This document shows, in pieces, positions 1,309-62,732 of a stretch of DNA of 64,000 nucleotides (its first letter is position 1; each line of letters opens with the position of its first letter). A program made the translations under genes and the position numbers. The notes beneath the pieces are model-generated. The model did not search any database, was not told the origin of the DNA, and saw nothing but the letters and a program-made list of their open reading frames with translations. This stretch comes from a virus. The stretch lies in the IMG/VR virus record IMGVR_UViG_3300034072_000369, positions 1 to 64,000 of that record; one strand, written 5' to 3'.

Positions 1309-1339
1309 CCAACAATGACACATCAATAAAGGAATCATC

Positions 1340-1600: not shown

Positions 1601-1602
1601 AC

Positions 1603-1821
1603 ATGACTGAACAAGAAAAGCCCACCGCCGAAGAAATCGCTCGCCACTACTCGGCAGCAATGGACTCCGTTAATCTAATCAACGCAGGCAAACCTGAACA
1701 AATGTCAGACATTGAATGGACAGATTGCCTAAATCGAAATAAAGAACATCTTAAGATTATGTTAGCTAAATCATGGTGGACTTCAGAAGATCTTACACCA
1801 CTTATAAATGCATCTCAGTAA
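1603..1821 (+). CDS. Hypothetical protein, 72 aa
   Basis: ATG 1603 lies just after the stop of the previous gene with GGAG upstream; the in-frame TTG at 1597 is less likely. The first ~25 codons are GC-rich (EKPTAEEIARHYSAAMDS) and the rest AT-rich, so a composition boundary falls inside the ORF. The C-terminal half resembles a small tail-associated helical protein (W.DCL.RN.EHL.IML). No function assigned. Confidence 0.6.
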   Translation: MTEQEKPTAEEIARHYSAAMDSVNLINAGKPEQMSDIEWTDCLNRNKEHLKIMLAKSWWTSEDLTPLINASQ

Positions 1822-1860
1822 GAGGAACCTAATATGAATTTAAATAAGAAGGAGTAATAT

Positions 1861-3651: not shown

Positions 3652-3659
3652 GGTCACCC

Positions 3660-4022
3660 ATGAACGATTACCGATTGCAATTTGCTGATGAGGCTGCATG
3701 GTGGGCCGCTGCTGCTTCTGAAGGGTGGGTGCATCATGAGTACGCCCCCCAGACTGTAGAGCCTGATCAAGAGCCTCCAGAACCTATTGTTAAAAACAAA
3801 TGGTTAGATACTAGCGAACGTGACTTTGATATAATAGGTACTATTTATAAACCTACAGGTAATACAATAGAACAAGAAGGTATAGAGATTCAAGAAATGA
3901 CTGCAATAAATGGCTATCATGTAAATATTAGATTGCACAATACAGAATTACCAGAGTCTATGGCTCAATACGTAGTTATCCCAAACAATCCTGTCCGTAC
4001 ATGGGCAGGTACTTCAATTTAA
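3660..4022 (+). CDS. Hypothetical protein near fibre, 120 aa
   Basis: I prefer ATG 3660 (GAGG six bases upstream) over the in-frame ATG 3648, which has no ribosome site and overlaps the previous stop. The N-terminal ~45 residues are tryptophan-rich and encoded by GC-rich DNA; the remainder is AT-rich. No domain recognised; location suggests a fibre-associated or fibre-chaperone protein. Confidence 0.6.
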   Translation: MNDYRLQFADEAAWWAAAASEGWVHHEYAPQTVEPDQEPPEPIVKNKWLDTSERDFDIIGTIYKPTGNTIEQEGIEIQEMTAINGYHVNIRLHNTELPESMAQYVVIPNNPVRTWAGTSI

Positions 4023-4663: not shown

Positions 4664-6247
4664 ATGACTGTAGTAAACGCTGCCCAGGCTTCAGTTAAAA
4701 CTGTAGGAGATCCTAATGCGTCTTATGAGTCATTAAAGCCTCTCTGGAATAAAAGCAGAGCAGTATGTAGCGGGGAGCGTTACGTCAAAGATTTTGACGG
4801 AGCTATTGATGTTATTAACTTCAATAACTTACTAATTCCATTCTCTCCTTCAATGACTCAAAAGCAGTATAATTTCTATAAAGCTGAAGCGGAATTACCT
4901 GGAATTGTTGCTCAATTTTGTAAGATGATTGTAGGTGGACTATTAAGAAAAGCTCCAATTTTACAACTACCTGAAAATTATGTGTCTGATGCCTTTAATT
5001 GGATAATGAATGAGTTTGGTAAAGATGACAGTTCATTAACATCTTTTCTAGATTCAGTCTTATGGGAAGAAGTTCAAACAAGTAGAGCTTGGGTCTTTGT
5101 TGATTATCCTAAGATTAATAATCCAGAAGCATTAACTAAGCAAGAGCAACAAACCTTTAAACCCTATCCAATTTTACAAAAAGCCGAATCTGTAATAAAT
5201 TGGAAAATATCTGAAGATAGGTTTGGCAAGACAATTTTAACACGAGTCATCGTTAGAGGCTTTAAAGAAGAATATGAAGCATCCAATGAATTTCATCCAG
5301 TATTTAAAGATACTGTATGGGTGCACGATCTCGATGATTTAGGCTACTATCGAATAAGAATGTATCAAGCGTCTGCTAATGCAACAAAAGTAGAAGTAGT
5401 TTCAGGTCAACAAATTAAGAAGCCTTCTGAAAATAAACTTACATTTGACTTAAAAGAAGAAATTACTAATATAATGTCAAATGGCCAACGTCTTAAAATG
5501 ATTCCTGCATGGCCATTAAATGGGTCCATTGATGCAATTGAACCTATGTTGTCTCCTATCATTGATAAAGAAATTAGTTTATACAATAAACTAAGCCGAA
5601 GAAATCACTTATTATATGGTGCATCTACCTATACACCAATCATTATCTCAGATATAAGTGATGACGAATTTGAACAAATTGTCGAAGGTGGTCTAGGAAC
5701 TTGGATAAGACTTAGACAAGGAGATGATGCCAAGGTATTAGAAACGCCTACAGCTGCTTTACAAGATATGGATAGAGCTATTGCTGCATCTATTGAAGAA
5801 ATGGCTAAACTTGGCATAAGAATGTTAACGCCTGAAACTGCTCAATCTGGTATTGCACTTGAGATTAGAAATGCTGCACAAACAGCTCAATTAGGTACTT
5901 TAAATAATAAAGTAAGTGCAACTATGTCTCAAATAATTGCATTTATGCTTAATTGGCGATACAATACTGATCTTAAAGCATCTGATATTCATTTTAGTTT
6001 ATCACAAGACTTTAATCCAACACCTTTAGGTGCTGATTGGTTAAGGCTTGCAACAGAATGGTATAAGGAAGGGTTAATACCACGCTCTGTTTGGATTATG
6101 ATGCTAAAGCTAAATGATATGGTTCCTCCAGATTATGATGATGAAGAAGGTAAACAAGAGATAACTGCTGATGAAAGTTTAATTAGTAAACCTGATAATT
6201 CAGACTTTGCTAGGAGAATTGCAGATGAAGAAAACACCAAGCTCTAA
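4664..6247 (+). CDS. Portal protein (DUF4055-like)
   Basis: 527 aa, the usual size for a portal subunit. The order portal, small ORFs, MuF protein, scaffold, capsid is the standard head module, and the sequence (residues ~60-110 with AELPGIVAQFCKMIVGGLLRK, later LGTWIRLRQGDDAKVLETP and an alpha-helical crown region near SGIALEIRNAAQTAQL) resembles the DUF4055 portal group. It would form the dodecameric DNA entry ring at the capsid vertex and bind the terminase. Start ATG 4664 has AAGGGG upstream. The end overlaps the next small ORF. Confidence 0.8.
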   Translation: MTVVNAAQASVKTVGDPNASYESLKPLWNKSRAVCSGERYVKDFDGAIDVINFNNLLIPFSPSMTQKQYNFYKAEAELPGIVAQFCKMIVGGLLRKAPILQLPENYVSDAFNWIMNEFGKDDSSLTSFLDSVLWEEVQTSRAWVFVDYPKINNPEALTKQEQQTFKPYPILQKAESVINWKISEDRFGKTILTRVIVRGFKEEYEASNEFHPVFKDTVWVHDLDDLGYYRIRMYQASANATKVEVVSGQQIKKPSENKLTFDLKEEITNIMSNGQRLKMIPAWPLNGSIDAIEPMLSPIIDKEISLYNKLSRRNHLLYGASTYTPIIISDISDDEFEQIVEGGLGTWIRLRQGDDAKVLETPTAALQDMDRAIAASIEEMAKLGIRMLTPETAQSGIALEIRNAAQTAQLGTLNNKVSATMSQIIAFMLNWRYNTDLKASDIHFSLSQDFNPTPLGADWLRLATEWYKEGLIPRSVWIMMLKLNDMVPPDYDDEEGKQEITADESLISKPDNSDFARRIADEENTKL

Positions 6248-6546: not shown

Positions 6547-9500
6547 ATGTCCATCAACGCTAATACACAAATTTATGACAAAGCAATAGATAGAGCTGCA
6601 ATGATAAGGCTCTACGAGAGACGTGTCAATGGTAAGATTGAATTAGTTATTGATGGTCATACCGTCCGAGTAGATAAACTTATCAAAGATGCAAATCTTT
6701 CAACTAAAGGCTTTAATAGATTACAGGAAGCCATTGATCAGGAACTTCAGCGAACATATAAAGAAGCATTCAATATCAGTAAAAGATCTTTATTAGATCT
6801 TGTTTCTGATCAAATCTCATTTACATACCAAAATGTAGAATCTGCATTAGGTAAGATTTGGCGTGCTGAAAGACCTCCTAAAAGAGTAGCTGAAGAAATT
6901 GTACTTGAAAAACCATTACATTCTAATCAAACTTTAGCTGCTGGTTGGGCAGGTATAAGTTCTAATGAGAAGAGACGTATTGAAGCCTTAATTAGAAAAG
7001 GAATTGCAGAAAATAAAACTGTAGATGAAATTGCTTTAGATGTAAGACGAGGCAATATTCATAGTATTAGTCGTATGCAATCAAAGGCATTAGTAGTAAC
7101 TGCAATAACTTCTGTAACAGCTCAAACGGATCATGCAGTATATAAAGCAAATGAAAAAGCTATCCAAGGTTGGCAATATGTTGCTGTGTTAGACTCTAGG
7201 ACAACTCCACTCTGTGCTCATAGAGATGGTAAAATATATCCAATAGATGACACACGACATTTGCCACCAGCTCATTTTCATTGTAGATCTACTACAATTC
7301 CTGTATTCAAATCATGGGAAGATATGAGTAAATTAGAAGGTGTTGCACAAATACGGCGTAGGAATATCTCAAATCTTAGTGATAAGGATATTCAATTCTA
7401 TGATGGTCAAACGCCTATGCGAGAGACCTATAATTCTTGGTTGTTAAGACAAGATAAAAGTGTACAATTACGTCATATTGGAGATTATCAAAAAGTTGAG
7501 TTATTTAGATCTGGCCAACTAGAATTAAGTAAGTTCACTAATGATGAAGGTAATTCTTTAGGTATAAAAGAACTTAGAGCAATGACAGATAGTGGATATA
7601 CGCTACCAAATGACACAAGGAAATTTGCATTAGCTAAAGAAAAACTAGATGCAATGCAATTAGGCGCAAATACTCCTGATGACCTAATTAATGACAAACA
7701 ATTAAGACAAACCTTACTTGACTATTATCTATTACAGGCTGGAGATCTTAGTGGTAATTTGTCTCTAACTAACTATAGAGGCACTCTAATGGGTGTTAAG
7801 CGATCTGTAAAGAATCGCGTTTTATCTACTCCTCCTAGAGAAGATCAGCTAAAGTTTAATCCAATAACAGGTCGATATGAAGATGTTAGACTGTATCAAC
7901 CAAATCCATCAGTATTAACCAATAACATAAGACTTATTGATGAGAGTACTAAGCTTTTAGATAGAGATAAAGAATTTATTAAAAACTTTGTAGATAATCT
8001 AGCTGAAAGAATGAGTGTTAATGAAAGAGCAGTAATTGCAGATAATTTAAGAATAATTTTTGGAAGATATCGAGACAATCCAGACGTATGGGTTAATCTG
8101 AAAGCAATTATTCAGAGTCAAATTAAGTTTGATGTAATGAATGTATCAGATGCTATTGAGACTCAGATTCGAAGAGACTCTGACATCTTAAAGAAAATCT
8201 TACAAGATAATTATATTGATCCAGTATTAGGTCCAGTACAATTACAAGATTTACATGATAAGTTTATAGATAATATCTTAAAACGAAATAGATGGGAAGA
8301 TAAAGTTGCACCTAAGATTGCTAATGAACTAAGGAATGTATTTGATTATAAAATACCTCTAGTTATTAAAAATAGAATTTCTGATAGAGATTTACAACAA
8401 TTCTATCTAAGATTTGCGCATAGATTAAGTTTAGCGGATTCTCCAGACAGAGATCAATTCGCTATTGCATTAGGAAGAGATCTCTATAACTTAGCAAATT
8501 TAAATGGTTATAAGAGAAAATGGTATGATCTTGGATTATCTTTACTAGAATCTAAGAATGTAAAGAAATTCTTTGAAGTTGAAACATTTGGTGTTCAAAA
8601 GAGGCGAATGAAAAGTAAGTTAAGTTCAGCTTACTTTGGACCTTATTATGATACACTGTCTTATAATATTCGAGTTGTAGACCCAAGAATTCAAGAATAT
8701 GCTCAACTTAATAGAAAAATAGATCTAGGACTAAGAATTAGTGTAACTGAAGATAAGAATAGACTTGTTTTCAGAGAAGGTTATAAAACCTACTTTATTG
8801 ATCGTGGAATTTTAGGATATGAAGATACTAGAATACCAATTACATCTACTAGTAGTTTTAGCGATTTTCCAGAAGAATTTGTCGACAAAGAATTTATAGA
8901 TGCTTTAAATTGGGCATCTAAGGCAAAATATAAAATAGATCAGGATTATTTCGACTTTGTACGAAAATTACTATACTTTGAAGACGACAGAGGTAATGCT
9001 AAGAAGTATAATGACTTGAACGAATATCGTAAATATATGGCATCTCGAGGAGATACATATGAGCGATTTAAGGCAATGGAATGGTTAAGAGCTTCTGGTA
9101 AGTCTTTTAGCAATCATCCATTCATTGATCATCGTGCTCGTATTTATGATCGTGGTCTAATTAGTCCTCAATCAGGTGAAGCTTTTAGACCATTTTTGAA
9201 CACAGAAGAAGTTAAGAAATTTAGTCCTGATGACTTTAGAAATTTACAAGATCAAATAGGAGCTTTTCTTGGTGGATTAAATGATTACTTTGAAGGCAGA
9301 TTTAATTCTTTATCATTTACTGGCAGACAAAAAGTTGCCGAGAAATGGAGACCAGAATTAATAAGAGTAGGTAATCATATGCTAAGAGGTAAACCTAATG
9401 ATATTAGAGCTATATTAGAATCTGATTTTGTTTCTAGAGTAGATGGTGAAGAATTAAATAAATTCTTTAGATTTGCATTAGAAATTGCTAAAATTGATAA

Positions 9501-11175
9501 TTATCTAGAAGGTAATTATTCTGCTAAATCACTTGAAAAGCTTAATAATTATGATATTTCTCTTGCATTAGAGCAGGATGCTTCCTCATCTGGTGCTCAA
9601 ATTATTGCATTAACTACTAGGAATAAACAACTTGCTGAATTAAGCAATGTCGTACCTACTAGTCAAAAGAAAAGATTATACGATGAAATTGCAGCTTTAA
9701 CGTATAATGATCCTAGGTTTAGAAAGCTAAATGAAAGATTAGGTCTAAATGAGAAAGATTTAAGAAAAGCTTCTAAAGCTCAGAATATGGTTACATTCTA
9801 TGGTGCTGGAGAACGTACTAGTGGTCTGAATGTAGAAGGTAAATTATCTAAAGTTCTAGAAAAAGATGTAAACACATTAGTTGTAAAGGCAGCTGATAGA
9901 GATAAAGTCTTGAATGAAATAAGTGCTAGAATTGCACGATATGAGAAATTTGATCCTGAAACTGCTGAAGAACTAAGAGATTTACGTCAAAATGTTAGAG
10001 ATATATTTAACAAAGGATTAGACCCTGGTGATGAAATACTAGAGCAGCTGTATTTTCTTGATCCTAAAACTAGAGATCTTGTTGAAAAGTTGTCAACATC
10101 TTATGAAAAGATTGTGACACCAAATGACTTTAAAGCAATCGCTCAAATTATGAGTGAGTATCTTGCAGAACAAGTACCTATTCTAAAAGGATTTACTAGA
10201 TACTTTGGTAGATTAGCGGAAGACTATCTAGCTAATGCTAAACCATCTAATGCTGACTTCGATTGGAAAACAATTGCAAAAACTACATTAGTTGGAAGTA
10301 AAAAGAAAGGTTATGTACTCTCAGATAATGTAAGCCAGCTATTAGGTGTTAAAGCAGGTGAACCTCTGAGTGAGAAACTTTTAAAGAGATTTGGTTTCTG
10401 GAAACCTAATGGGACTCTAAGTCAAATTGTTTATGGGGTAGAAGCTCCAGATGTCAGGCGAACTGGTGCTAAATATCTTAAAGTAGACTTTTTACAGTTA
10501 AAGACACTAAATGAATTAGAAGTCTTTTATGCAAACAAATTACCAAAAAGCTGGACTAACGTACCTTGGGTAAATTTTGATGGAAAGATTATTGAACAGA
10601 ACTTTACGCAAACTATTGAAGAAAGATTGGTATATAAGGATAAATTTGGTAATTGGACTACAAATATTTTACAAGTGCCTCAAAAGACTGAAGCATCTTG
10701 GTGGGAACAGGTAATAAATAAATCAGGTAAAATTAATGATATTGCAGATCTTACAAGAGCTAGAACTGCCTTTGCAGTTAATGGTAATCATTCAAATGAT
10801 GCTGTAATTGTAAAGAAGTTCCATTTATGGGGACGAAAGAATAAAGTTCCAACGTCTACTATACATGATGCTTTCTTTACTAATGCTGCTGACATGTTAA
10901 AAGCTAGGCAGGCTCTAAGAGAGAGTTATGCTGAAGTTTTAAATAAGAATGTAATCAAAATGACACTAGATGAGATGCGTGCGAGAGGTCTACCTAAAGA
11001 ATTATATGATAAATATCTTGAAGAAGCTATTGAAACAGGCCTAATACCAATTCCTGGTAGGTCAAGAGTGGGTGGTAAAATACTCACAGAAAAAGATATT
11101 CTGAACAAGTCTGACATTCTTAGAGAAATCCCTAAAGGTTTTTCAAATGATTTCGGATGGTACGGAGTAGGTTAG
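6547..11175 (+). CDS. MuF minor head protein fused to a single-subunit RNA polymerase (virion RNA polymerase)
   Basis: 1542 aa from ATG 6547 (AGGTGAGA just upstream; the GTG at 6538 is less likely). Residues ~130-255 are a MuF domain: GWQYVAVLDSRTTPLCAHRDG with D216, C223, H225, then HFHC at 243-246. The remaining ~1240 residues carry every hallmark of T7/N4-type RNA polymerases: DHRAR at 861-865 (T/DxxGR motif, Gly replaced by Ala); motif A QDASSSGAQ with catalytic Asp1011; motif B R1073-x3-K1077-x7-Y1085-G1086; motif C TIHDAFF with H1440 and Asp1441. Motifs B and C are ~355 residues apart versus ~173 in T7, so there is a large insertion. As a MuF fusion it should be packaged in the head and could be injected, as N4 virion RNA polymerase is. 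Function is inferred from motifs; processing from MuF is unknown. Confidence 0.88.
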   Translation: MSINANTQIYDKAIDRAAMIRLYERRVNGKIELVIDGHTVRVDKLIKDANLSTKGFNRLQEAIDQELQRTYKEAFNISKRSLLDLVSDQISFTYQNVESALGKIWRAERPPKRVAEEIVLEKPLHSNQTLAAGWAGISSNEKRRIEALIRKGIAENKTVDEIALDVRRGNIHSISRMQSKALVVTAITSVTAQTDHAVYKANEKAIQGWQYVAVLDSRTTPLCAHRDGKIYPIDDTRHLPPAHFHCRSTTIPVFKSWEDMSKLEGVAQIRRRNISNLSDKDIQFYDGQTPMRETYNSWLLRQDKSVQLRHIGDYQKVELFRSGQLELSKFTNDEGNSLGIKELRAMTDSGYTLPNDTRKFALAKEKLDAMQLGANTPDDLINDKQLRQTLLDYYLLQAGDLSGNLSLTNYRGTLMGVKRSVKNRVLSTPPREDQLKFNPITGRYEDVRLYQPNPSVLTNNIRLIDESTKLLDRDKEFIKNFVDNLAERMSVNERAVIADNLRIIFGRYRDNPDVWVNLKAIIQSQIKFDVMNVSDAIETQIRRDSDILKKILQDNYIDPVLGPVQLQDLHDKFIDNILKRNRWEDKVAPKIANELRNVFDYKIPLVIKNRISDRDLQQFYLRFAHRLSLADSPDRDQFAIALGRDLYNLANLNGYKRKWYDLGLSLLESKNVKKFFEVETFGVQKRRMKSKLSSAYFGPYYDTLSYNIRVVDPRIQEYAQLNRKIDLGLRISVTEDKNRLVFREGYKTYFIDRGILGYEDTRIPITSTSSFSDFPEEFVDKEFIDALNWASKAKYKIDQDYFDFVRKLLYFEDDRGNAKKYNDLNEYRKYMASRGDTYERFKAMEWLRASGKSFSNHPFIDHRARIYDRGLISPQSGEAFRPFLNTEEVKKFSPDDFRNLQDQIGAFLGGLNDYFEGRFNSLSFTGRQKVAEKWRPELIRVGNHMLRGKPNDIRAILESDFVSRVDGEELNKFFRFALEIAKIDNYLEGNYSAKSLEKLNNYDISLALEQDASSSGAQIIALTTRNKQLAELSNVVPTSQKKRLYDEIAALTYNDPRFRKLNERLGLNEKDLRKASKAQNMVTFYGAGERTSGLNVEGKLSKVLEKDVNTLVVKAADRDKVLNEISARIARYEKFDPETAEELRDLRQNVRDIFNKGLDPGDEILEQLYFLDPKTRDLVEKLSTSYEKIVTPNDFKAIAQIMSEYLAEQVPILKGFTRYFGRLAEDYLANAKPSNADFDWKTIAKTTLVGSKKKGYVLSDNVSQLLGVKAGEPLSEKLLKRFGFWKPNGTLSQIVYGVEAPDVRRTGAKYLKVDFLQLKTLNELEVFYANKLPKSWTNVPWVNFDGKIIEQNFTQTIEERLVYKDKFGNWTTNILQVPQKTEASWWEQVINKSGKINDIADLTRARTAFAVNGNHSNDAVIVKKFHLWGRKNKVPTSTIHDAFFTNAADMLKARQALRESYAEVLNKNVIKMTLDEMRARGLPKELYDKYLEEAIETGLIPIPGRSRVGGKILTEKDILNKSDILREIPKGFSNDFGWYGVG

Positions 11176-11177
11176 TG

Positions 11178-11196
11178 AAACCCGTTAAATTAACCC
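11178..11196 (+). promoter_or_regulatory. Motif A copy 1, candidate phage promoter
   Basis: AACCCGTTAAATTAACCC in the 110-base gap between the MuF-polymerase gene and the scaffold gene. GTTA and TAAC can pair around the loop AAT. It would drive the capsid and tail operon. A 90-base leader precedes the scaffold start. Confidence 0.7.
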
Positions 11197-11285
11197 AGGT
11201 GTCATTTAGTATAATGATACCTACTATTTTATAATAAAGATTGTATCTTTATTTTAATGAGTTGTACTCAAAAGGAAATTTTAAA

Positions 11286-11975
11286 ATGTCTGATTCTAAC
11301 ACCAATAACGCTGATACTGATAATACTAATCAAGATTCTGATAAGAATCAAAATAATAGTAATCAAAATAATCAGCAGACTAATGAAGACCCTGTTGAAA
11401 AGTTAGTAAAAGAACGTGTCTCTGAAGCTGTTAAGGATATCAAAACTAAACTTGATAGTGCTTACGGTGCTCGTGATGAAGCGATGCGAAAGCTTGCAGA
11501 TATCGAGCAAAAACAGAAAGAACGTGAACTTGAACAACTTAAGAAAGAGGGTAAAGAGAAGGAAGCTTTAGAACTTCAACTATCTGAAGAACGTGCCAAA
11601 AGAGAGACTCTAGAACGGCGTACTATTGAACTTACGCGAGATCTAGAGTTACGTAATTCGCTCTCTGGCTATGATTTTAGGAATGATACTGCAATAGATA
11701 TGGCGTATCGTGAAATTGTAGCACAACTTATTCAAAATGAACAAGGTGTTTGGGTACACAAATCAGGAATCTCTGTAAAAGACTTTGTCAAACAATTTAC
11801 AGAACAAGATTCTAATTCATTTTTGTTGAAACCAAAAGTATCTTCTGGTGCTGGAACTACGACAACTCAATCTAATAGTTCATCTGGTGATAATAGCAAG
11901 AAATCGCTCTTTAGCATGTCGCAAGATGATGTCTTAAAATTAGCTAGGGAAGGCAAACTTCCTCCTAAGAGATAA
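11286..11975 (+). CDS. Capsid scaffolding-type protein
   Basis: 229 aa from ATG 11286 (AAAAGGAAA upstream; the TTG at 11241 is not supported). The first 40 residues are almost only N, D, Q, S and T, followed by a long charged coiled coil (residues ~45-130, EEKL.KE.V.EA...EKQKEREL) and a low-complexity S/T/G tail ending in basic KLPPKR. Composition, length and position directly before the major capsid gene are those of phage scaffold proteins, which shape the procapsid and then leave or are degraded. Confidence 0.75.
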   Translation: MSDSNTNNADTDNTNQDSDKNQNNSNQNNQQTNEDPVEKLVKERVSEAVKDIKTKLDSAYGARDEAMRKLADIEQKQKERELEQLKKEGKEKEALELQLSEERAKRETLERRTIELTRDLELRNSLSGYDFRNDTAIDMAYREIVAQLIQNEQGVWVHKSGISVKDFVKQFTEQDSNSFLLKPKVSSGAGTTTTQSNSSSGDNSKKSLFSMSQDDVLKLAREGKLPPKR

Positions 11976-11986
11976 AAGGAATTTAA

Positions 11987-13174
11987 ATGACTGTTAAAAC
12001 TAACCTTGCAGGTGCCGACAACTTTGTTCTGCAAGAAGCTCTGAGTGCGTACTCGGATGAAGCATATACTAGTGAACGTAAACTTACTAGCACTGGTATT
12101 GTTGGCGATAATCCTAATATTGATACTAACACTGAAACCTTTAGTGGTCAGGTTCGTTGGTTTAAGCCTTTGAATCCTACTGTTAACGTTGCATCTCTTA
12201 CCGACTCTACTGCCGGTACTGGTACTACGTATTCGTCTGATTATGTAAATTACATTAAGACAGTACGTACACATGGTGCTACTAAAGTTAACATGCAGCA
12301 AGTTGTAACTCAACAAGACGGTCTTGCTAAAATCGGTCGTGATTTTGGTGAAACTCGTGCTAAAGATGAGCATAATGCTCTCTTGGCTATTCTTAAGGGT
12401 GTTGCACTGTCCGAAGCACTCAATGGTGCTGCTGCTGCTAGTGGTGCAACAGGTCTTGGTGGACAAACTTTTGATAATGATCCTACCGATAAGAAATACG
12501 GTTTCTATGTAGACCTTGGTGCAGCTAAGGCTGTTGTAGATGCAACTACTTCTATTCAGGGTGCTGCTCGTGCTCAAGGTTTCTTAGATGCTATGGGAAT
12601 GGCATTTAAAGATTATGAGCCAGAGTATGCATATCTAATCACCAGTCCTCAAATGATGGCTTCGCTTCGTTCGGCAAATCTTGTTGATCAAACGACTGTT
12701 GTAGATGGTAATGTTAATTTTAATACTATCTTCCAAGGTAAACTTCGTTTGATTCAAACTCGTGCCTCACAAGGCTTTACCTCTGCTGAGTTGACAAAAG
12801 TTAACACTGGTGCAGGTGTAGATATTGTTGGTACTAAAACCTCCTTTATCGTACTTCCTGGTGCATTAGCAATGCGTCCTCTAGCTGTGCCTGATCAAGT
12901 TGAAATTGAGCGTAATGCTGCAGCCTATAAGGGCGGTGGTACTACCTCTATTTGGTATCGTTGGGGCTATGTAATGCATCCTGCTGGTTACGATTGGGCA
13001 GGTGGTAAAGAAGCATTCCCATCTGATGCTGAGTATCGTTATGCAATCGAAGGTGGTACACCTAAAGCCCTCGCTAGCGTTGCCTCTGGTACGCTTGCAA
13101 GCACTACAGGAACATGGATTCGTAAGTCGTCTTCTGCATTGAGCTTGGGTATTCTGCCTATTTTCCATTCTTAA
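11987..13174 (+). CDS. Major capsid protein
   Basis: 395 aa, strong AAAAGGAA site before ATG 11987. It follows the scaffold and precedes the head-tail connectors, the standard capsid position. The sequence has a long helix (KIGRDFGETRAKDEHNALLA, residues ~105-130, spine-helix-like) and a C-terminal beta-rich domain (residues ~200-330, ending in the region around AMRPLAVPDQVEIERNAAAY), consistent with the HK97 fold. Codons are less AT-biased than neighbours, as expected of a highly expressed gene. The exact capsid family is not certain. Confidence 0.85.
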   Translation: MTVKTNLAGADNFVLQEALSAYSDEAYTSERKLTSTGIVGDNPNIDTNTETFSGQVRWFKPLNPTVNVASLTDSTAGTGTTYSSDYVNYIKTVRTHGATKVNMQQVVTQQDGLAKIGRDFGETRAKDEHNALLAILKGVALSEALNGAAAASGATGLGGQTFDNDPTDKKYGFYVDLGAAKAVVDATTSIQGAARAQGFLDAMGMAFKDYEPEYAYLITSPQMMASLRSANLVDQTTVVDGNVNFNTIFQGKLRLIQTRASQGFTSAELTKVNTGAGVDIVGTKTSFIVLPGALAMRPLAVPDQVEIERNAAAYKGGGTTSIWYRWGYVMHPAGYDWAGGKEAFPSDAEYRYAIEGGTPKALASVASGTLASTTGTWIRKSSSALSLGILPIFHS

Positions 13175-16361: not shown

Positions 16362-19300
16362 ATGGCTATAGTTTTGAAAACTATTTCAGATTCTTCACAG
16401 GCCCAAGCAGATCTAGCTAAGCTAAGAGATTCTGTAAATGGTATACAATCAAGTGTAGATAAAGTCTCTAATAGCTTCTCTAATTTTCTAAGGTTAGCTT
16501 CTGTAGGTATTGCTGGTTATGCAACTTTTCAAACATTTGCGAAATATTCAGATGAATTAACTAATCTAGAGACAAAACTTAGAGTAGCAACTCAAAGTCA
16601 ACTAGAATTTACATTTGCATTAGATCAAGTTAGACGAATTGCAAACACAACACGTTCTGATCTTCAATCTGTTGCAAGTCTATATAGTAGACTTTCTAGA
16701 GCAGGTAAAGATTTTGGTGCAGCACAAGGCGATATTGCTAAAGCTACTGAATTAATAAGCAAGGCAATGGCGGTATCGGGTTCTGGTGCACAAGAAGCAA
16801 ATGCGGCTATTATTCAGTTAGGTCAAGCACTAGCATCTGGAAGACTAGCTGGAGATGAGTTACGTTCAATCTTAGAAAATGCACCACCATTAGCTGAAGC
16901 AATTGCTAAAGGCTTAGGTGTATCGATTGGTAAATTACGACAATTAGGTGAAGAAGGTAAATTATCTTCTGTTAATGTATTTAAAGCAATTCTAAAACAA
17001 CAAGATGAAATTGAAAAGAATTTTGCAAAAGTTACTGTAACCTATGGCGCTGCTTTTCAAAATTTAGGTAACTCTCTTGTTATATTATTTGATGAGGTAA
17101 AGAAAGCTGCATTAGGCTCTACTAGTGGATTTGCAGAATCTATCAATAATTTAGCAAATAGTATATTTAGCTTTGCAACAAATCTAGGCTTTACTCTAGC
17201 TGTAGCTAAATTAAAATTAGTACTATTTGTAACTGATTCAGTTCTCTTATTTAATGATCTATGGGATTCATTAAAAGAAACTGGAGTTAGAATTGAAGAA
17301 ACTACTAGAACTTTATATGATAAATGGAGACCTACTTTAGTAAGGTTAACTGAAGATGTTGTTAGCTGGGCTAAGTATGTAGCTGTTGCTAGTACTGCAG
17401 CTGCTACTTCTTTATATGCAGCATTTCAAGCTACTAATATTGGCCAAATAATCATAAATAATACTAAGGCATTCATTAGTACTATTAGACAATTCATTAC
17501 TTCAGCATTTTCTACAATTTCTGCTAATATACCTAAAATAGATATAAGAAGTATATTTCCTGGTTTAGACTTAGCAATTCAATATGTAAGAGGTTGGGCA
17601 ATTGCAGTAGAACGTTGGTTCTTTTGGCTTTATGATAAAGTTATTGGTAATTCATGGATTCCAGATTTAGTACAGAAAACTACTGAATGGGTTAGCAAAC
17701 TAAATAAGAAACCTTTATCAATTATTGCCGAATTTGTTGAAAAAGCCAATTTAAGATTTGGTGGAATAAATATTACGGCACCATTTATTACTGGTGTTGC
17801 AGCCTTATATAAATTTAGAGGAATCCTCTTAAGTGTCTTAGGTGTATTTACTGCAATAGCAGCTGTAGTTGCTGGTTTTAAATTCTTTAAAGATGGCACA
17901 TTAGAGATAAGCCAGGAACCAGAAGTAAAGAAAACAAATAAACTTGAAGATCTTACTAGAAAATCTGTAGAAGGCTTACAAAAGGTTCGTAAACAAATTG
18001 AAGAATCTTTTAATAATTCTTTATTAGGTCGAAGTCTTAAGCAATTATTCGGACTTAAAGATACAACACCTGGTCAAGTTTTTGGTGTTCAAATTGATAC
18101 AGAAGCTCAAGTAGGTCGTGGTCCATATCGAAGTTCAATGGATAGACCATTCGGTCATGACTTTATAAACATGTTGCCTCCAGGATGGCAAGTACCGTTG
18201 ATTGCAGCATTTACTGGTGTATTTGCATTAGCAATTATTAAAGCATTTGACGGCGGTCCAGTAAGAAGTGTCCTATTAAGTGTAGTAACTACTCTAGGTG
18301 CTATCTTTGCTTCTAGAGTTGTTGATGATAAGACGATTTCATCTTCATTTGGCAAGGCTGCATTTACTTTTATTAGTATTGTAGAAAAAGGTATTACATC
18401 CCTATTTTCTGGTAGTGTGTTAAATGATCCTTTAGGTGTATTATCGACAGTTGCTAAAACAGCCTTACTGTTTCAAGCTGGTAGAGAAGCTATTGCAAAA
18501 GCTGCATTAGGTATTGCCACAGCACCAACTAAAGCGGCACAAGCTGTTACATCTACTTTAGAACGTAATCTATTACGTAGAGATATTGATAAGACAAATA
18601 AAGAAATTGCAAAACTACCTAATAATCTAAAAGCAGCAGTTACTTCAAATAGAACAGCTTTTGATCAAACAGTTAATCAACTTGCTCAACTTAGAGATTC
18701 TAATGGTGCATTAATAGGTCAGCAAAGGGCGTTAGCTGCAATTAATGCTAGAAACGTATCTGCTTTTGGTACTCTAGAATCGAGAATTCGGACTGGTGAA
18801 GGTATTCGTGGTCAAGATGCCTTAACTGCTTCTCAAGCTAATTTGAATAATGTAAGAGAAATCAGAAGAAATCTTGTAGCCAGTAGAGAAGAGTCATCTC
18901 GTCGTGAAAGACTTATTACTGAAAATTTACAGAAACAAGCTGATTCTTTAAGAGAAGGTATACGAAATGTCGGTGCAGGCGCAGGCGGAATTTTGGGCGG
19001 ACTGGCGGGCCTCCAGATAGGCACAGAGATCGCCAGAGGCATGACCAGTAGCCCCGAATGGGTGCGGGTAGGCACTGCCCTTGGAATCTCGTTCGCGGGT
19101 CAAGCCGTGGGCGCTGGAATTGGTTCTATCATAGCTCAGACTTTTGTATCAGGTGTGTCCGGAGTTGGTAGCCTAATTGGGAGAGCAGTTTTGTTTGCTC
19201 TTACACCAATTGCTGCAATTATTGCAAGCCCATTTCTACTTGCTGCTGCAGGTATAGTAGCATTAATCACTGCTGCCTTAAATTGGGATTCATTAAAGTC

Positions 19301-22133
19301 AATATTTAATAATTTTAGTGAATTTTGGAAAGCTAAGATATCCCCTATATTAGACGGTCTAGTTAGTAGACTTGAAGTACTATGGCAAGATATTAAACGT
19401 GGCATAACAAATAGATTAGATCTTAATAGACCTGTTGCAGACTTACCTGTTGTTGGTGAAGTAACTAGAAAAGATGTTACAGACATAGCAGCAACTACGG
19501 GAATTATTGCAGCAATTGCAGCTAAATTAGGTGCATTTGATAAACTAGTAGGAAGTTTTAGAGCTGGATTAGCTTCTAATCTTGCCGGTATATCGATGCA
19601 GGTGGATTTGTTTAGACAAACTGTTTTGTCTAATCTCGGAAATCTTAGAGCTTCTCTAGGACCTTTAGCAACATTAGGCGCTGTAATCATGGGCGCTATT
19701 ACTGCAGTTTTATCAGTAGGTGCAGTAAAAGTTGCAATTGTAGCTGGAGTCTCATATCTTGTTTACAAATTAGTTACTGAACTTACAGGTTTTCTAGTTG
19801 ATGAAACAAAAGCTCAAAAGCCATCACTTCCATCTAGTCCTGCTGTTTCTGCAATTCCAAGAGCAATGGGTGGTTGGATAAGTGGTCCAGGAACATCTAC
19901 ATCAGATTCTATTCCTGCTCTATTATCTAATGGTGAATTTGTTGTAAATGCAAAAGATGCAAGAAAGAATTGGGATATATTAACAGCAATTAATAGTGGC
20001 ATGGGAGTACGTAGATATGCCGAAGGCACAGCTACTACAAGTACCGGTGCTACAGAAATTGCAGTTCAAATATTTGAACGTCTTAAGAGTCTATTAGGTT
20101 TTAATAAACCAGCTGCACCTTCTACTACACTTCCTTCTGGACAAGAGTTAAAAGGAACTCTTCAAAGCTTATTAGAGAGTTCTAATAATCTTGATAAAGC
20201 TTTTGTAGAGACTAAAAAGTCTTTAGAGAATGCAGGATTTGAAAGTGTAGATCTAAAAGCAATTAAGAATCTTGCAGAAAGAGATCCTGCTCAATTTAGA
20301 AAATTTGCTAGTGCTATTGATGAAGCTAATAAAGCTATCTTAAATAGTACTGATAAACGACTCAGTCAATTCTTGCGTAATGAAAATTTACAGCGAGCTA
20401 ATGATGTTTTCAGAAGTATTGCAGATAATTTAGCAAAAGCTGGAATTGCTCAAGTTCCTAGTAAATTTGTTGAGCAACCTGAAGAAAAGAAACCAACTAA
20501 ACTAACTTTTGGTGATGAATTAAAGCTAATTCAAGAGGCATTTCCAGAACTTACGATAACATTAGAAGAACTTTCTAATATGTCAGATACAGTTCGTGAG
20601 AGACTTCTTCGAGATGCTGCTAGTATTGCACAAAAAATAAATGCAATTAATTCATTAGAAATAGGAACGTTAGAAGGCGGACTTGCAAGTAAATTGCCAG
20701 GTGGTGAAATAAATAAACGTCGTCAAGCTATTGAAACAGAACGTAAATCTAGTTTGACACAAGCTAGAGACGCTGTTAAAGCTTTCAGAGTTCCATTTAA
20801 AGACTTAAAAGTTGATTTTGATAAAATCGGAATAAATATTTCTGAAGAAGCTTTTAATTCACTAGATGAGATTACGCTAGGCCTTATTGAAGGTTTAAGA
20901 TCTAAAGCAGTTGAACAATTTGACGTAATTAAGAAAGTTGATGTTACATCAGATGTTAGAAGACGAGCACAAGAATCTTTTGGTGAAATTACTAAAGATA
21001 TTAATAAGATTCTTCAAGAAGCACCAACAAGAGGTCTTAGAAATCTGGAAGGATTTAAGACTCGTATTGCTTCCCTTGGAATTCAAATTGATGAAAATAT
21101 CTTTAATGCATTAACAAATGCAGAAAGAGATAGAGTTGAGCAATCTGCAATTCAAGTAAATGCTCTTAGAACTCAAATAAAAGAGTTTGAAAAAGATCCA
21201 TCTAAAGACCCATCTGGTGCTTTTAGAAATATATTGCAAAAGATTATTGATGATATATTAACAGATTCTACTAACTTTATTAATACTAAAGGTAAAGATT
21301 ATAAGTCAAGAGCAACTCTAGCAGGAGAATCTCTAGCATCAAGTGTAAGTGAATCTCTTAGTAGTGGTCTTAGTAATGTTCTAAAAGGTAAAGCAACACC
21401 TAAAGAATTTTTAAGAGGAGTTCTAGATACATTTACTAGTGGTGTAATCGATACATTTGTAAAAGGCTTATTAGATCCATTTACTAATCAAGAAAAAGGC
21501 CCATTAAATACATTATTAAAAGGTCTAGGAACTGGCATATTTAAATCTGGTGAACAGACTGCTGAGAATGCAAGTCAATTAGTAAAAGAAACTCCGACTG
21601 AATTCTCATTTGGCGGAATATTTGAAACATTTTCAAAGTCGTTTAAAGGCTTCTTTGACTCTTTTAAAGGCCTATTTACTAATCTAGATTTTGGAAGTCT
21701 ATTCAGCGGAATAAGCAGTCTATTCAAAACTGGATTTAGTTCTGTTTTCAGTTTATTTGGATTTGCAGAAGGCGGCAAAGTAAGTGGTCCTGGAACAGGA
21801 ACTTCTGATTCAGTTCCAGCAATGTTGTCTAATGGTGAATTTGTAGTAAACGCTCAAGCTACTAGAAAGAATCTAGCTCTGTTAACGGCAATAAATGGAA
21901 ATAGATTTAGAAAGTTCATGGAAGGTGGCTTAGTATCGACTGCAATGATAGCATCACCTGCAATGGCTAATATTGGACCTGCAACTATTGCTCAAAACAA
22001 AGGTCAACAAGTCTTTAATATTAATATCACTGGTGACATTAGTAGGCAAACAAAAGCTGAAATTTATCAAATGCTTCCATCAATTGCCGAAGGTGTTAAT
22101 TCACACAACAGAGAAAGAGGTTATAAAGGGTAA
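16362..22133 (+). CDS. Tape measure protein
   Basis: 1923 aa, which would span a very long tail. The N-terminus (SSQAQADLAKLRDSVNGIQS ... ASGRLAGDELRSILENAPPLAEAIAKGLG) is the typical TMP_2 tape-measure domain. Several hydrophobic segments lie in the middle. Two copies of a GG.[IV]SGPGT.TSDS.PA[LM]LSNGEFVVNA motif (near 19870 and 21780), known from tape measures, are present. A ~150-base stretch at 18970-19120 is ~65% GC by hand count, against ~35-42% around it, and encodes a Gly/Ala-rich membrane-like segment. The protein sets tail length and is ejected during infection. Confidence 0.92.
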   Translation: MAIVLKTISDSSQAQADLAKLRDSVNGIQSSVDKVSNSFSNFLRLASVGIAGYATFQTFAKYSDELTNLETKLRVATQSQLEFTFALDQVRRIANTTRSDLQSVASLYSRLSRAGKDFGAAQGDIAKATELISKAMAVSGSGAQEANAAIIQLGQALASGRLAGDELRSILENAPPLAEAIAKGLGVSIGKLRQLGEEGKLSSVNVFKAILKQQDEIEKNFAKVTVTYGAAFQNLGNSLVILFDEVKKAALGSTSGFAESINNLANSIFSFATNLGFTLAVAKLKLVLFVTDSVLLFNDLWDSLKETGVRIEETTRTLYDKWRPTLVRLTEDVVSWAKYVAVASTAAATSLYAAFQATNIGQIIINNTKAFISTIRQFITSAFSTISANIPKIDIRSIFPGLDLAIQYVRGWAIAVERWFFWLYDKVIGNSWIPDLVQKTTEWVSKLNKKPLSIIAEFVEKANLRFGGINITAPFITGVAALYKFRGILLSVLGVFTAIAAVVAGFKFFKDGTLEISQEPEVKKTNKLEDLTRKSVEGLQKVRKQIEESFNNSLLGRSLKQLFGLKDTTPGQVFGVQIDTEAQVGRGPYRSSMDRPFGHDFINMLPPGWQVPLIAAFTGVFALAIIKAFDGGPVRSVLLSVVTTLGAIFASRVVDDKTISSSFGKAAFTFISIVEKGITSLFSGSVLNDPLGVLSTVAKTALLFQAGREAIAKAALGIATAPTKAAQAVTSTLERNLLRRDIDKTNKEIAKLPNNLKAAVTSNRTAFDQTVNQLAQLRDSNGALIGQQRALAAINARNVSAFGTLESRIRTGEGIRGQDALTASQANLNNVREIRRNLVASREESSRRERLITENLQKQADSLREGIRNVGAGAGGILGGLAGLQIGTEIARGMTSSPEWVRVGTALGISFAGQAVGAGIGSIIAQTFVSGVSGVGSLIGRAVLFALTPIAAIIASPFLLAAAGIVALITAALNWDSLKSIFNNFSEFWKAKISPILDGLVSRLEVLWQDIKRGITNRLDLNRPVADLPVVGEVTRKDVTDIAATTGIIAAIAAKLGAFDKLVGSFRAGLASNLAGISMQVDLFRQTVLSNLGNLRASLGPLATLGAVIMGAITAVLSVGAVKVAIVAGVSYLVYKLVTELTGFLVDETKAQKPSLPSSPAVSAIPRAMGGWISGPGTSTSDSIPALLSNGEFVVNAKDARKNWDILTAINSGMGVRRYAEGTATTSTGATEIAVQIFERLKSLLGFNKPAAPSTTLPSGQELKGTLQSLLESSNNLDKAFVETKKSLENAGFESVDLKAIKNLAERDPAQFRKFASAIDEANKAILNSTDKRLSQFLRNENLQRANDVFRSIADNLAKAGIAQVPSKFVEQPEEKKPTKLTFGDELKLIQEAFPELTITLEELSNMSDTVRERLLRDAASIAQKINAINSLEIGTLEGGLASKLPGGEINKRRQAIETERKSSLTQARDAVKAFRVPFKDLKVDFDKIGINISEEAFNSLDEITLGLIEGLRSKAVEQFDVIKKVDVTSDVRRRAQESFGEITKDINKILQEAPTRGLRNLEGFKTRIASLGIQIDENIFNALTNAERDRVEQSAIQVNALRTQIKEFEKDPSKDPSGAFRNILQKIIDDILTDSTNFINTKGKDYKSRATLAGESLASSVSESLSSGLSNVLKGKATPKEFLRGVLDTFTSGVIDTFVKGLLDPFTNQEKGPLNTLLKGLGTGIFKSGEQTAENASQLVKETPTEFSFGGIFETFSKSFKGFFDSFKGLFTNLDFGSLFSGISSLFKTGFSSVFSLFGFAEGGKVSGPGTGTSDSVPAMLSNGEFVVNAQATRKNLALLTAINGNRFRKFMEGGLVSTAMIASPAMANIGPATIAQNKGQQVFNINITGDISRQTKAEIYQMLPSIAEGVNSHNRERGYKG

Positions 22134-33568: not shown

Positions 33569-33586
33569 AACCCGTTAGATTAACCC
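33569..33586 (+). promoter_or_regulatory. Motif A copy 2, candidate phage promoter
   Basis: AACCCGTTAGATTAACCC. Same stem halves GTTA and TAAC as the other copies, loop GAT. It lies between the branched terminator and the holin gene and shares the flanking CG before and GACGT after with copy 5. It would drive the lysis genes. Confidence 0.7.
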
Positions 33587-34508: not shown

Positions 34509-34513
34509 AATAG

Positions 34514-34538
34514 CCCCACAGAAATGTGGGGTTTTTAT
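34514..34538 (+). terminator. Rho-independent terminator
   Basis: CCCCACA, GAAA tetraloop, TGTGGGG, TTTTT. It overlaps the end of the lysis pair and is followed two bases later by motif B, so one unit ends and another begins here. Confidence 0.9.
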
Positions 34539-34540
34539 TT

Positions 34541-34567
34541 GCGGAAAATATGGTATCTTATATGATA
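34541..34567 (+). promoter_or_regulatory. Motif B copy 1, candidate promoter
   Basis: 27 bases starting GCGGAAAATA and ending GTATCTTATATGATA. It differs from copy 2 at a single base. TTGCGG and TATGAT are 16 bases apart, which could also be read by host sigma-70. A 42-base leader leads to a good ribosome site. Confidence 0.65.
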
Positions 34568-35330: not shown

Positions 35331-35551
35331 TGAAAACTTTAGCTATATTATGTCTTTTGTTAACAGGTTGTGCCTCAGCAATACCACACGATTCTTATAT
35401 ACAAAGTAGTTCTATAATATATAAGACTAATCAGTATGGTGAAACTCAACCCCATAACGGTATTTACAGAATTATTGGTAATCAAATTTATCAAGCAGAT
35501 TCTGTAGGAAATATTATGTATCACAAGAATAGTCTAAAACGCGGAAAATAG
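35330..35551 (+). CDS. Small lipoprotein
   Basis: 73 aa from ATG 35330 (AAGGAG upstream, start overlapping previous stop). Signal sequence and lipobox LLTGC with Cys16. A mature protein of 58 residues with few charges follows. It might be an outer-membrane spanin (Rz1-like) given its place after a wall hydrolase, though it lacks the usual Pro-rich content. Its last codons overlap motif B copy 2. Confidence 0.6.
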   Translation: MKTLAILCLLLTGCASAIPHDSYIQSSSIIYKTNQYGETQPHNGIYRIIGNQIYQADSVGNIMYHKNSLKRGK

Positions 35552-35567
35552 GGTATCTTATATGATA
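35541..35567 (+). promoter_or_regulatory. Motif B copy 2, candidate promoter
   Basis: Same 27-base element as copy 1 with one change, lying over the last codons of the lipoprotein gene. The -35-like region here reads ACGCGG and is a poor sigma-70 match, which favours a dedicated polymerase over host sigma-70. A 21-base leader follows. Confidence 0.6.
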
Positions 35568-36893: not shown

Positions 36894-37028
36894 ATGTATG
36901 ATATATTAGCCATCTTAATAAATTTCTTTCGATTAGGTCTAATAGTCATATTTAATTGTCTTGCTATTTATTTGCTTATTAGCATTTTCCCATATCTCAT
37001 AAAGCTAATTTTCTGGGAATTTTCATGA
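36894..37028 (+). CDS. Small hydrophobic membrane protein, 44 aa
   Basis: ATG 36894 behind GGAG. Almost the whole protein is hydrophobic (two short spans). It ends TGA 37026-37028, overlapping the polymerase start in ATGA, so it may act as a leader that couples polymerase translation to the hairpin state. It may also have its own membrane role. Confidence 0.6.
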   Translation: MYDILAILINFFRLGLIVIFNCLAIYLLISIFPYLIKLIFWEFS

Positions 37029-39310
37029 AACAAAAGATAGTTGATAGTTTAAACAGTAGATTAAAATCAGAGATATCATCTCATAATCCAATTAAATATT
37101 TGTTTAATTATAAAGTTGAAGAATATATTGACAATATTATTTCTGTCGTTTATTTATATACAAGACCTAAAAAAGGTGTTAATAAGAATTCAATATACTT
37201 AACTGAAATTATTGCCGCAATAGGCCATAATATCCGTGGAAAATATCGACTAAAAAGAGATTCTGCATTAGCAGCTAAAACAGGTGCATTTATATTGTAT
37301 ACTTTTGAAGAGATTGGTTATATTCAAGTTTTATTAGGTCAGGGTTCTAAGGGGCATAATAGCTATATAGTACAGGTTTTGAATGATGAAGCTATCTGTA
37401 ATTTGTGGAACAATTTAGATCCTAGTCAAATTGAGAAGCTCCCATCTGAGACTCCGTATGAACCTTGGAAAACAACTCGACATCCTACTGGCTTCTGGTT
37501 AATCAAAACTGGCAATAAAGATGTCTTAGATAAAGTCTCACCAACAACACATCCAATTATATTTGAATGTGTAAATAAAGCACAAGCTACTGGTTGGCGA
37601 ATTAATGAAGAAATCTTTTCAATCCAATCCTGGGCTTTACGAAATAAAACTCAAGCGTTCTCAGATATATGGGATGCTCAGAGTATAGAGTCAAGATCTA
37701 CTAAATTAAGAGAAGCAAAAGCTATAGGTGATATTGCTAAAAGATTCTTAAACAAAACTTTTTATCATTTATATTATTATGACTTTCGTGGCCGTAAATA
37801 TGTTGCAACGGCATATCTACATGAGCAAGGTAGTGACTTAGCTAGAGGTCTTTTACTAAGAGCTGATCAAAAGAAAATAGGTAAAGAAGGTTTCTTTTGG
37901 TTAATGGTTAGCATCGCTTCATCTTGGGCAGGTGATGCTGGAAGAGAAGATGGAGCAAAGACTGACAAAATACCATTGAAAGACAGATACTTATGGTCTA
38001 TAGATAATGAAGAGATTCTAATGTCTTATGCTGAGAAACCTAAATTAAATCAAGGATGGATGAAAGCTGATAAACCTTGGCAATTTCTAGCATGCTGTAT
38101 CGAGCTTAGAAAGTTTAGACATTGGCAATTATCCTTCTTCGATGACTATGTTGATATTGCCCTAATAGATCAAGAGCTTGATAGATTAACTGTAGATCCG
38201 TATGACTATGAATCAAGTTTAGAATGCTATGTAGACGGCTCAAATAACGGCAGTCAGCACTTATCCGCATTAACTAAAGATGAGGTCATCGCACCTCATG
38301 TGAATTTAGTACCTTCAGATTTGCCTGGAGATCTATATAAGTATGTAGGTGATCATGTTTGGTCACATCTTGAGCAAGAGCTAGCATTGATGAAACAAGA
38401 TGAGATAGAAGATTGTGAAGCCTTTATTGATAATCTAATTGAAATTAAGAAACAAATAAATGCTGCAGAACCTAACAGTAATGCACGTAAGGAACTTATA
38501 GAAAAGATAAAACAATTTAAGCAAGATAATGAGTATCTGTTGACAATATCTGCACCTGTGTTCTGGTATCGAATAAAAGACACTAAACATAAACGTAAGA
38601 TTGTCAAGAGAAATACAATGACTATTCCATACGGAGGCACTGCATATGGCTTAGGTCAACAAATTATTGATGATGCTAAGAAACATAATATTGATTTATT
38701 ACTTTATATGGAACATAAATGGGGTGCTTACTTAGGTAGAGAAGTTTTTAGTGACTGTAAAGTATCATTAGAAAGACCAATGCAACTATTACGAGTATTC
38801 GAAGATGCTGGTAAAAAGGCAGAGAAAAATAATAGATTCCTAAGTTGGACTGTACCTGTAACTAAATTTCCTGTAGTTCAAAATTATACAGAAGGAAATG
38901 TTAAAAAGATATGGGTACAATATGGTCCACCAAAAGGTCAACGTAATAGTACTGGTTACTATGAGAATACTCTACAACTTGCAGTTTGCTTTGTTGAAGA
39001 TGTGAAGCCATCTAAAGGAAAACAATCGCAAGGTGCAAGTCCTAATATTATTCATAGTCTAGATGCAGCACATCTTGCAATGACTGTAAGTAAAGCAGAT
39101 TTTCCAGTAACTACAATACATGACTCATTCGGATGTCTCTTAGCAGATATGCCTAAATTATTTACATTATTAAGACAGACTTTTGTAGAATTGTATGAGA
39201 ATGATCCTTTAACAGCAATAATAAGTGAGATTGGAGGTAATTTAGATGACGTACGTTTAGGTAGTTTAGATTTAAGTTTAATACTAGATAGTGAATATTG
39301 TTTTTCATGA
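37025..39310 (+). CDS. T7-like single-subunit RNA polymerase
   Basis: 761 aa. All core motifs are present: DFRGR at 253-257; motif A VDGSNNGSQHLSAL with Asp404; motif B R524-x3-K528-x7-Y536-G537; motif C TIHDSFG with His699 and Asp700. The length is a little below T7 RNA polymerase (883), mostly at the N-terminus, so promoter recognition may differ. It would be synthesised in the cell and transcribe phage genes from dedicated promoters. It is the second single-subunit polymerase in the window. Translation is coupled to the upstream 44-aa ORF. Confidence 0.93.
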   Translation: MKQKIVDSLNSRLKSEISSHNPIKYLFNYKVEEYIDNIISVVYLYTRPKKGVNKNSIYLTEIIAAIGHNIRGKYRLKRDSALAAKTGAFILYTFEEIGYIQVLLGQGSKGHNSYIVQVLNDEAICNLWNNLDPSQIEKLPSETPYEPWKTTRHPTGFWLIKTGNKDVLDKVSPTTHPIIFECVNKAQATGWRINEEIFSIQSWALRNKTQAFSDIWDAQSIESRSTKLREAKAIGDIAKRFLNKTFYHLYYYDFRGRKYVATAYLHEQGSDLARGLLLRADQKKIGKEGFFWLMVSIASSWAGDAGREDGAKTDKIPLKDRYLWSIDNEEILMSYAEKPKLNQGWMKADKPWQFLACCIELRKFRHWQLSFFDDYVDIALIDQELDRLTVDPYDYESSLECYVDGSNNGSQHLSALTKDEVIAPHVNLVPSDLPGDLYKYVGDHVWSHLEQELALMKQDEIEDCEAFIDNLIEIKKQINAAEPNSNARKELIEKIKQFKQDNEYLLTISAPVFWYRIKDTKHKRKIVKRNTMTIPYGGTAYGLGQQIIDDAKKHNIDLLLYMEHKWGAYLGREVFSDCKVSLERPMQLLRVFEDAGKKAEKNNRFLSWTVPVTKFPVVQNYTEGNVKKIWVQYGPPKGQRNSTGYYENTLQLAVCFVEDVKPSKGKQSQGASPNIIHSLDAAHLAMTVSKADFPVTTIHDSFGCLLADMPKLFTLLRQTFVELYENDPLTAIISEIGGNLDDVRLGSLDLSLILDSEYCFS

Positions 39311-40130: not shown

Positions 40131-40148
40131 AACCCGTTAAATTAACCC
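40131..40148 (+). promoter_or_regulatory. Motif A copy 3, candidate phage promoter
   Basis: AACCCGTTAAATTAACCC, loop AAT, 32 bases before the SSB gene. It would start the replication operon. Confidence 0.7.
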
Positions 40149-54259: not shown

Positions 54260-54277
54260 AACCCGTTAAGTTAACCC
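54260..54277 (+). promoter_or_regulatory. Motif A copy 4, candidate phage promoter
   Basis: AACCCGTTAAGTTAACCC. Stem halves GTTA and TAAC kept, loop AGT. It lies 43 bases before motif B copy 3, so the next gene has two stacked candidate promoters. Confidence 0.7.
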
Positions 54278-54319: not shown

Positions 54320-54346
54320 GCGTTAAAAGTAGTATCTTATATGATA
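54320..54346 (+). promoter_or_regulatory. Motif B copy 3, candidate promoter
   Basis: GCGTTAAAAGTAG then GTATCTTATATGATA overlaps in register with the other two copies. TTGCGT and TATGAT are 16 bases apart. A 34-base leader with AAGGAA precedes the gene. Confidence 0.6.
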
Positions 54347-62714: not shown

Positions 62715-62732
62715 AACCCGTTAAATTAACCC
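62715..62732 (+). promoter_or_regulatory. Motif A copy 5, candidate phage promoter
   Basis: AACCCGTTAAATTAACCC, loop AAT, four bases after the peptidase stop. It is followed by nearly 400 noncoding bases before the next gene. Confidence 0.7.

Follow-up and report, generated by a model that had tools for sequence, protein, structure and literature searches.

The stretch of DNA analysed here (the window) comprises 64,000 nucleotides and is part of a 70,092-base virus record. Comparison with PHROGs revealed a portal protein gene (4664..6247; phrog_145, E 3.5e-58), a single open reading frame of 1542 aa adjoining it on the 3′ side (6547..11175), and directly behind this frame a scaffold gene (11241-11975) followed by a major capsid gene (11987-13174), the last two being recognised as a pair (11241..13174) by matches to phrog_206 and phrog_247; all four lie on the plus strand. 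The 1542-aa frame starts with an ATG at 6547, just 5′ of which is the Shine-Dalgarno-like sequence AGGTGAG, and it encodes a fusion of a MuF head protein with an RNA polymerase (MuF-RNAP). The tape measure protein (1923 aa; 16362..22133, plus strand; phrog_17300 and others, E 9e-80) is encoded by a separate gene and is not the carrier of the polymerase. Since major tail and distal tail proteins were found in addition to the tape measure protein, the siphovirus background supposed in a preliminary description of this DNA, made from the letters alone, is borne out. The left end of the window (1-4022) has a GC content of 0.46, compared with ~0.34 elsewhere, and carries a tail-protein gene; it is possibly a recently exchanged receptor-binding module. 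A class II ribonucleotide reductase gene (47329-50081) is apparently split into parts of 349 aa, 208 aa and 299 aa, probably by an intron or a homing endonuclease, and Rfam models at the gathering threshold detected no intron in this region. The single hit of a scan of genome contigs was a phage contig that had been binned with a gammaproteobacterial MAG, which is no firm evidence on the host.

Residues 1-346 of the fusion (6547..7584) form a head-morphogenesis/MuF module (phrog_241, head morphogenesis, E 2.5e-62), the core of which, at residues 145-251 (6979-7299), matches the Pfam MuF family (PF04233, Phage_Mu_F; E 3.8e-13). The same frame matches Pfam RNA_pol in two stretches (E 7.5e-13, best at 1389-1480), both families being above their curated cut-offs, as well as two PHROG RNA polymerase families (E 2e-21 and 7e-12). 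With a PF04233 domain encoded directly after the portal gene, the class test for a MuF protein was met. These matches within a single ORF uphold the earlier proposal that a MuF domain and a polymerase share one frame, and that the fusion is real can be regarded as practically certain.

The single-subunit RNA polymerase module extends over residues ~556-1534 (8212..11148, plus strand), which align to residues 64-881 of T7 RNAP; hhalign, Pfam and AlphaFold2/Foldseek all contribute to this assignment. Alignment of the family profile with the T7-family profile by hhalign (E 1e-5, and 3e-7 in the reverse direction) revealed one collinear alignment, in which T7 D421, R425, D537, Y571, R627, K631, Y639, G640, H784, H811 and D812 are paired with D861, R865, D1011, Y1045, R1073, K1077, Y1085, G1086, H1415, H1440 and D1441, respectively. 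The motif residues named in the preliminary description were all located where it had placed them: the DxxGR-like motif DHRAR at residues 861-865 (9127..9141; T7 D421-R425), motif A, QDASSSGAQ from residue 1010, with the catalytic Asp1011 (9574..9600; T7 D537), motif B, R1073-x3-K1077-x7-Y1085-G (9763..9804; T7 R627, K631 and Y639), and motif C, STIHDAF, with H1440 and the catalytic Asp1441 (10855..10875; T7 D812). Because hhalign pairs these residues with the catalytic residues of T7 RNAP, their order is not a matter of chance. Two peculiarities noted at the same time were confirmed as well. Within DxxGR the sole change is Ala864 in place of T7 Gly424, and most members of the family have DxxAR; the spacing between motifs B and C, estimated as about twice that of T7, is 356 residues from Y1085 to D1441 compared with 173 in T7. 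Insertions that follow T7 residues 644-700 account for the doubled spacing; they are lineage-specific and occupy residues 1091-1305 (9817..10461). These insertions are partly absent from the homologue in phage DSS3_VP1, where the B-to-C spacing is 242 and the motif reads DSRGR with Gly, and some relatives contain extra in-frame inserts in the same region. On the strength of these comparisons, Ala864 and the long B-to-C spacing are lineage traits. Among the other T7 positions looked at, K441, K472 and D506 are not kept. No convincing match was obtained when PDB sequences were searched with the single sequence.

An AlphaFold2 model of residues 343-1542, built on 48 sequences of the window family, had a mean pLDDT of 85.8 and a pTM of 0.79. 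Foldseek matched the model to T7 RNAP and to the yeast and human mitochondrial RNAPs (E ~2e-17, probability 1.00), with moderate TM-scores of ~0.45-0.55 by target length, which we attribute to the large insertions. Compared with a library of viral models, it matched best a 1463-residue protein, the same length as the DSS3_VP1 homologue; phage T7-type RNAPs came next, and N4-like virion RNAPs (vRNAPs) ranked lower, any kinship with the latter being weak and structural only. A model without a palm domain, or with the motif residues scattered, would have refuted the reading. This outcome did not occur, although the register of the motifs is taken from the profile alignment, not from the geometry of the model. 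As predicted by the model and the alignment, the C-terminal part of the ORF is a T7-type single-subunit RNA polymerase fold, and the class test for such enzymes (aspartates of motifs A and C, K..Y-G of motif B and DxxGR in order, right-hand fold) was met. There is little doubt that the module is a competent polymerase; RNA synthesis itself is inferred, as no activity data exist.

To assess the spread of the fusion, we scanned IMG/VR with residues 343-1542, which returned 245 relatives, and an alignment-based scan confirmed at least 581. MuF and RNAP were observed in one frame in ~60 full-length IMG/VR contigs from many metagenomes, and the fusion was kept in all full-length relatives examined, except for one frameshifted contig and variants with introns or inserts. 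Three deposited phage genomes also encode it, namely DSS3_VP1, DSS3_PM1 and EBPR siphovirus 1, with annotations of only 'head protein' or 'head morphogenesis'; the fusion in DSS3_VP1 and DSS3_PM1 (Naomviridae) has 30% identity at 89% coverage, the DSS3_VP1 protein being gp108 (YP_010105321). Among 48 relatives no variation was seen at Asp1011, K1077, Y1085, H1440 and D1441, nor at the Gly that follows Y1085 in motif B, and it is at motifs A to C that the invariant positions are concentrated (40 of 174 within residues 1001-1100). The motif-B arginine is missing in DSS3_VP1. Estimates of dN/dS were 0.01-0.09 in every segment having substitutions, a range by which MuF-RNAP is under purifying selection.

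Several relatives have interrupted or rearranged genes. Group I introns in or beside motifs B and C, one of them with an HNH gene, interrupt MuF-RNAP genes (L118, 13193-13399; L004, 23179-23405); that of L118 lies just before the NHSND/motif C block, and in EBPR siphovirus 1 a group I intron with an HNH gene splits the fusion gene at motif B. The gene of L406 breaks at the same motif B site. Conserved enzyme sites are of the kind favoured by homing introns. The free RNAP genes of L302, L306, L310 and L312 are longer, as if interrupted. The RNAP modules of L403, L404 and L405 contain in-frame inserts of ~100-230 aa, around residues 990 and 1108; inteins were considered and rejected, as on inspection only the sequences do not look like inteins. 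In one relative (L070/L114; L070, 6971-11625), MuF plus ~100 aa and RNAP are in two overlapping frames, which is either a sequencing frameshift or a real split.

A second, free T7-like RNA polymerase of 761 aa is encoded at 37025..39310 on the plus strand (PF00940, E 1.1e-63). A PF00940 screen of 14 MuF-RNAP records of ≥56 kb detected both RNAPs in every one, and the records without the free enzyme, 40-54 kb long, are taken to be fragments. The virion-RNAP class test for a separate, non-virion RNAP in the same phage was thereby met. Profile scores give the free RNAP no advantage over T7-type relatives, and hence do not support an origin of MuF-RNAP as a duplicate of it, in the absence of a tree.

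Two promoter-like motifs were observed in the window. M1 (CCCGTTANNTTAACCC) has five copies compared with none expected, all on the coding (plus) strand between genes: at 11181..11196, between the MuF-RNAP gene and the scaffold and capsid genes, the same place as in most relatives; at 33571..33586, where the tail module ends and the early region starts; at 40133..40148, before replication genes; at 54262..54277, in tandem with M2; and at 62717..62732, before the terminase region. Across 11 genomes there were 56 forward and 2 reverse matches, and M1 precedes the capsid genes; in the phage family as a whole its sites are mostly intergenic and lie before middle and late genes. M1 has a palindromic core (GTTA-NNT-TAAC), in which a single compensatory change was seen alongside mismatches. 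No outer stem was consistent between sites, nor was any promoter hairpin, and M2 had no evident hairpin. A hairpin promoter was thus considered for M1 and is not claimed, because of the inconsistent outer stems and the inner-stem mismatches beside the single compensatory change.

M2 (GCGGAAAANNNGGTATCTTATATGA), first spotted by eye as TATCTTATATGATA, occurs three times on the plus strand of the window (none expected, and no match in 100 shuffles): at 34541..34567, directly behind a terminator-like hairpin (34512-34533), at 35541..35567, 1.5 kb upstream of the free RNAP gene, and at 54320..54346, in tandem with an M1 site. It tops an unguided count of 11-mers common to the intergenic regions of 11 out of 11 genomes and was present in all 21 large MuF-RNAP phages checked, whereas a reversed-pattern control gave 1 match in 28 records. 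An exact scan of 2.9 million IMG/VR contigs revealed M2 in 68 stretches. In stretches that also contain the free RNAP gene, M2 precedes it on the same strand, at a distance of 0.9-5.2 kb (44 of 44 sites), and some genomes have further copies elsewhere, such as that at 54320 in the window. When previously unseen contigs longer than 50 kb were picked by M2 alone, nine out of ten encoded MuF-RNAP. Because of its invariable position upstream of the free RNAP gene in these stretches, M2 is a candidate early promoter and a marker of the family.

Promoter-like repeats of two classes occur between the genes of the cultured dU-DNA phage DSS3_VP1 (L005/L173): one, ATAGGKTRCGTTAAAGARGGGGA, is present in ~13 copies, and the other, GAGAAAACTAAGGCATCTATAATGA, occurs twice (35797 and 36244), upstream of the phage's RNAP gene. 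The latter, a putative early repeat, agrees with M2 in 18 of 25 letters and has the same location, but the score was not above that of shuffles; the likeness is suggestive, not significant.

We propose that the MuF module would anchor one or a few copies of the protein near the portal, inside the head, during assembly, so that the fused T7-type polymerase would be packaged along with it and enter the cell together with the DNA. The injected MuF-RNAP would then transcribe the early region, including the free RNAP gene, from M2 promoters, and the free RNAP would in turn transcribe the middle and late genes from M1 promoters. What computation has shown is the fusion and how it is conserved, the fold of the polymerase with its catalytic residues, the second RNAP, and the two motifs with their positions; virion presence, injection, activity and the assignment of each RNAP to a motif are inferred, as there are no proteomics, activity or transcript data for any member. 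The parts of the proposal differ in strength. Presence of MuF-RNAP in virions and its injection are inferred, with considerable confidence, from the MuF fusion and the gene position, in the absence of virion proteomics, and the conservation of a second RNAP together with M2 upstream of its gene strengthens this inference. The occurrence of M1 and M2 in tandem at several loci speaks for two different polymerases. That MuF-RNAP is the one reading the M2 early promoters, for which transcript data are lacking, is only somewhat favoured, and the cascade as a whole, in which MuF-RNAP is packaged, injected and reads M2 while the free RNAP reads M1, is probable. The broadest version, a widespread siphovirus family with a self-contained cascade of two T7-type enzymes only, independent of host RNAP, with M2 as a 25-bp double-stranded early promoter and M1 for the rest, is one on which we remain evenly divided.

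In one alternative, MuF-RNAP is packaged and active, but the earliest transcription, from M2-like promoters of host type, is carried out by host RNAP, and the injected enzyme acts elsewhere, for example in transcription-driven DNA entry or in reading M1. In its favour, T7-like phages commonly have early promoters of host type, the sequence of M2 allows a reading as TTGCGG-N16-TATGAT, and TATAAT is present in the putative early repeat of DSS3_VP1. However, M2 is conserved over most of its length, including the spacer, across divergent phages, its −35 hexamer is ill-matched to TTGACA, only ~1/3 of sites have T as the last base of the putative −10 hexamer, and the M2 sites are absent from the sigma-70 scan list. 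Reading of M2 by host RNAP is thereby weakened, not excluded, and we consider this scenario unlikely. A further alternative is that the intact fold of the polymerase domain has been retained to serve in the structure of the head or in replication, for example as a primase or DNA pump, and not for early transcription. The lack of activity data leaves room for it, as does accessory variation (Ala for Gly in DxxGR, and the motif-B Arg not kept in DSS3_VP1), but the invariance of the five catalytic-motif residues in 48 relatives, purifying selection and the coupled layout of promoters and second RNAP make it very improbable. An assembly or frame artefact, or a chance match of motifs, for which the two overlapping frames of L070/L114 could be cited, is already contradicted by the ~60 full-length contigs and three deposited genomes and by the concurrence of structure and profile alignment, and its probability is negligible.

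If the cascade of MuF-RNAP and free RNAP is correct, a phage could switch on its first genes without a host enzyme, and MuF would be a new type of carrier, through which a single-subunit enzyme was recruited into the virion a second, independent time. It predicts the protein in virions, rifampicin-resistant early transcription and transcription starts at M2, and would provide a new specific polymerase/promoter pair, possibly useful as a tool. DSS3_VP1, which grows on Ruegeria pomeroyi DSS-3, offers a cultured model for MuF-RNAP, and reading of dU-DNA by its virion RNAP would be of interest in itself. The group has hundreds of members in environmental viromes that have so far been annotated merely as 'head protein'.

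To our knowledge, virion RNAPs are known from only a few phage groups, the N4-like, phiKZ-like, P23-45-like and, by proposal, crAss-like phages. No report of a MuF-RNAP fusion was found in the open-access literature, a mention in the original description of Naomviridae not being excluded, and RNA polymerase goes unmentioned in the paper on the EBPR phage. DSS3_VP1, DSS3_PM1 and EBPR siphovirus 1 have the same fusion as the window, interrupted by an intron, at motif B, only in EBPR siphovirus 1. MuF-RNAP resembles the T7 RNA polymerase family (PF00940) in fold, motif order and all catalytic residues, and differs in its fusion to MuF, in the 356 residues from B to C and in DxxAR. A survey of polyvalent proteins, in the part available to us, gives the fusion partners of MuF as including PBECR RNases, 2H phosphoesterases, RelA/SpoT, PRTase and zeta-toxin-like kinase domains but names no RNAP among them, and it states that N4-like virion RNAPs are confined to N4-like phages (PMC5512222). 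The arrangement described there, an N-terminal MuF module followed by a C-terminal enzyme that presumably reaches the host, is that of MuF-RNAP (PMC5512222). Phage N4 (Schitoviridae) carries a single-subunit RNAP, gp50, in the virion and has its later genes transcribed by another phage RNAP (PMC4496689, PMC12633501), a likeness to the window phage in which virion presence is inferred on our side. The N4 vRNAP, however, has ~3,500 aa and its own ejection domains and belongs to podoviruses with hairpin promoters, whereas the window has a MuF head-protein carrier in a siphovirus. The profile search proposed in the preliminary description yielded the T7-family register of catalytic residues but not the similarity to N4 vRNAP, since hhalign detected none (E 0.12-0.38, probability <1%); for want of such similarity, it appears, at the level of sequence, that this T7-type enzyme was recruited into the virion independently of N4. 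Thermus phage P23-45 has a tape-measure-fused virion RNAP, gp96, which transcribes the gene of the non-virion RNAP gp64 (PMC10770324); like the window phage, it is a siphovirus that has two RNAPs, one of them joined to a virion protein. The test for the P23-45 type was not met, as gp96 is a two-barrel RNAP on a tape measure protein and the window encodes a T7-type palm polymerase on MuF. The layout of a virion and a non-virion RNAP thus matches both N4 and P23-45 (PMC4496689; PMC10770324), and the MuF fusion appears to be a third, previously unrecognised way to package an RNA polymerase, in a large family of long-tailed phages.
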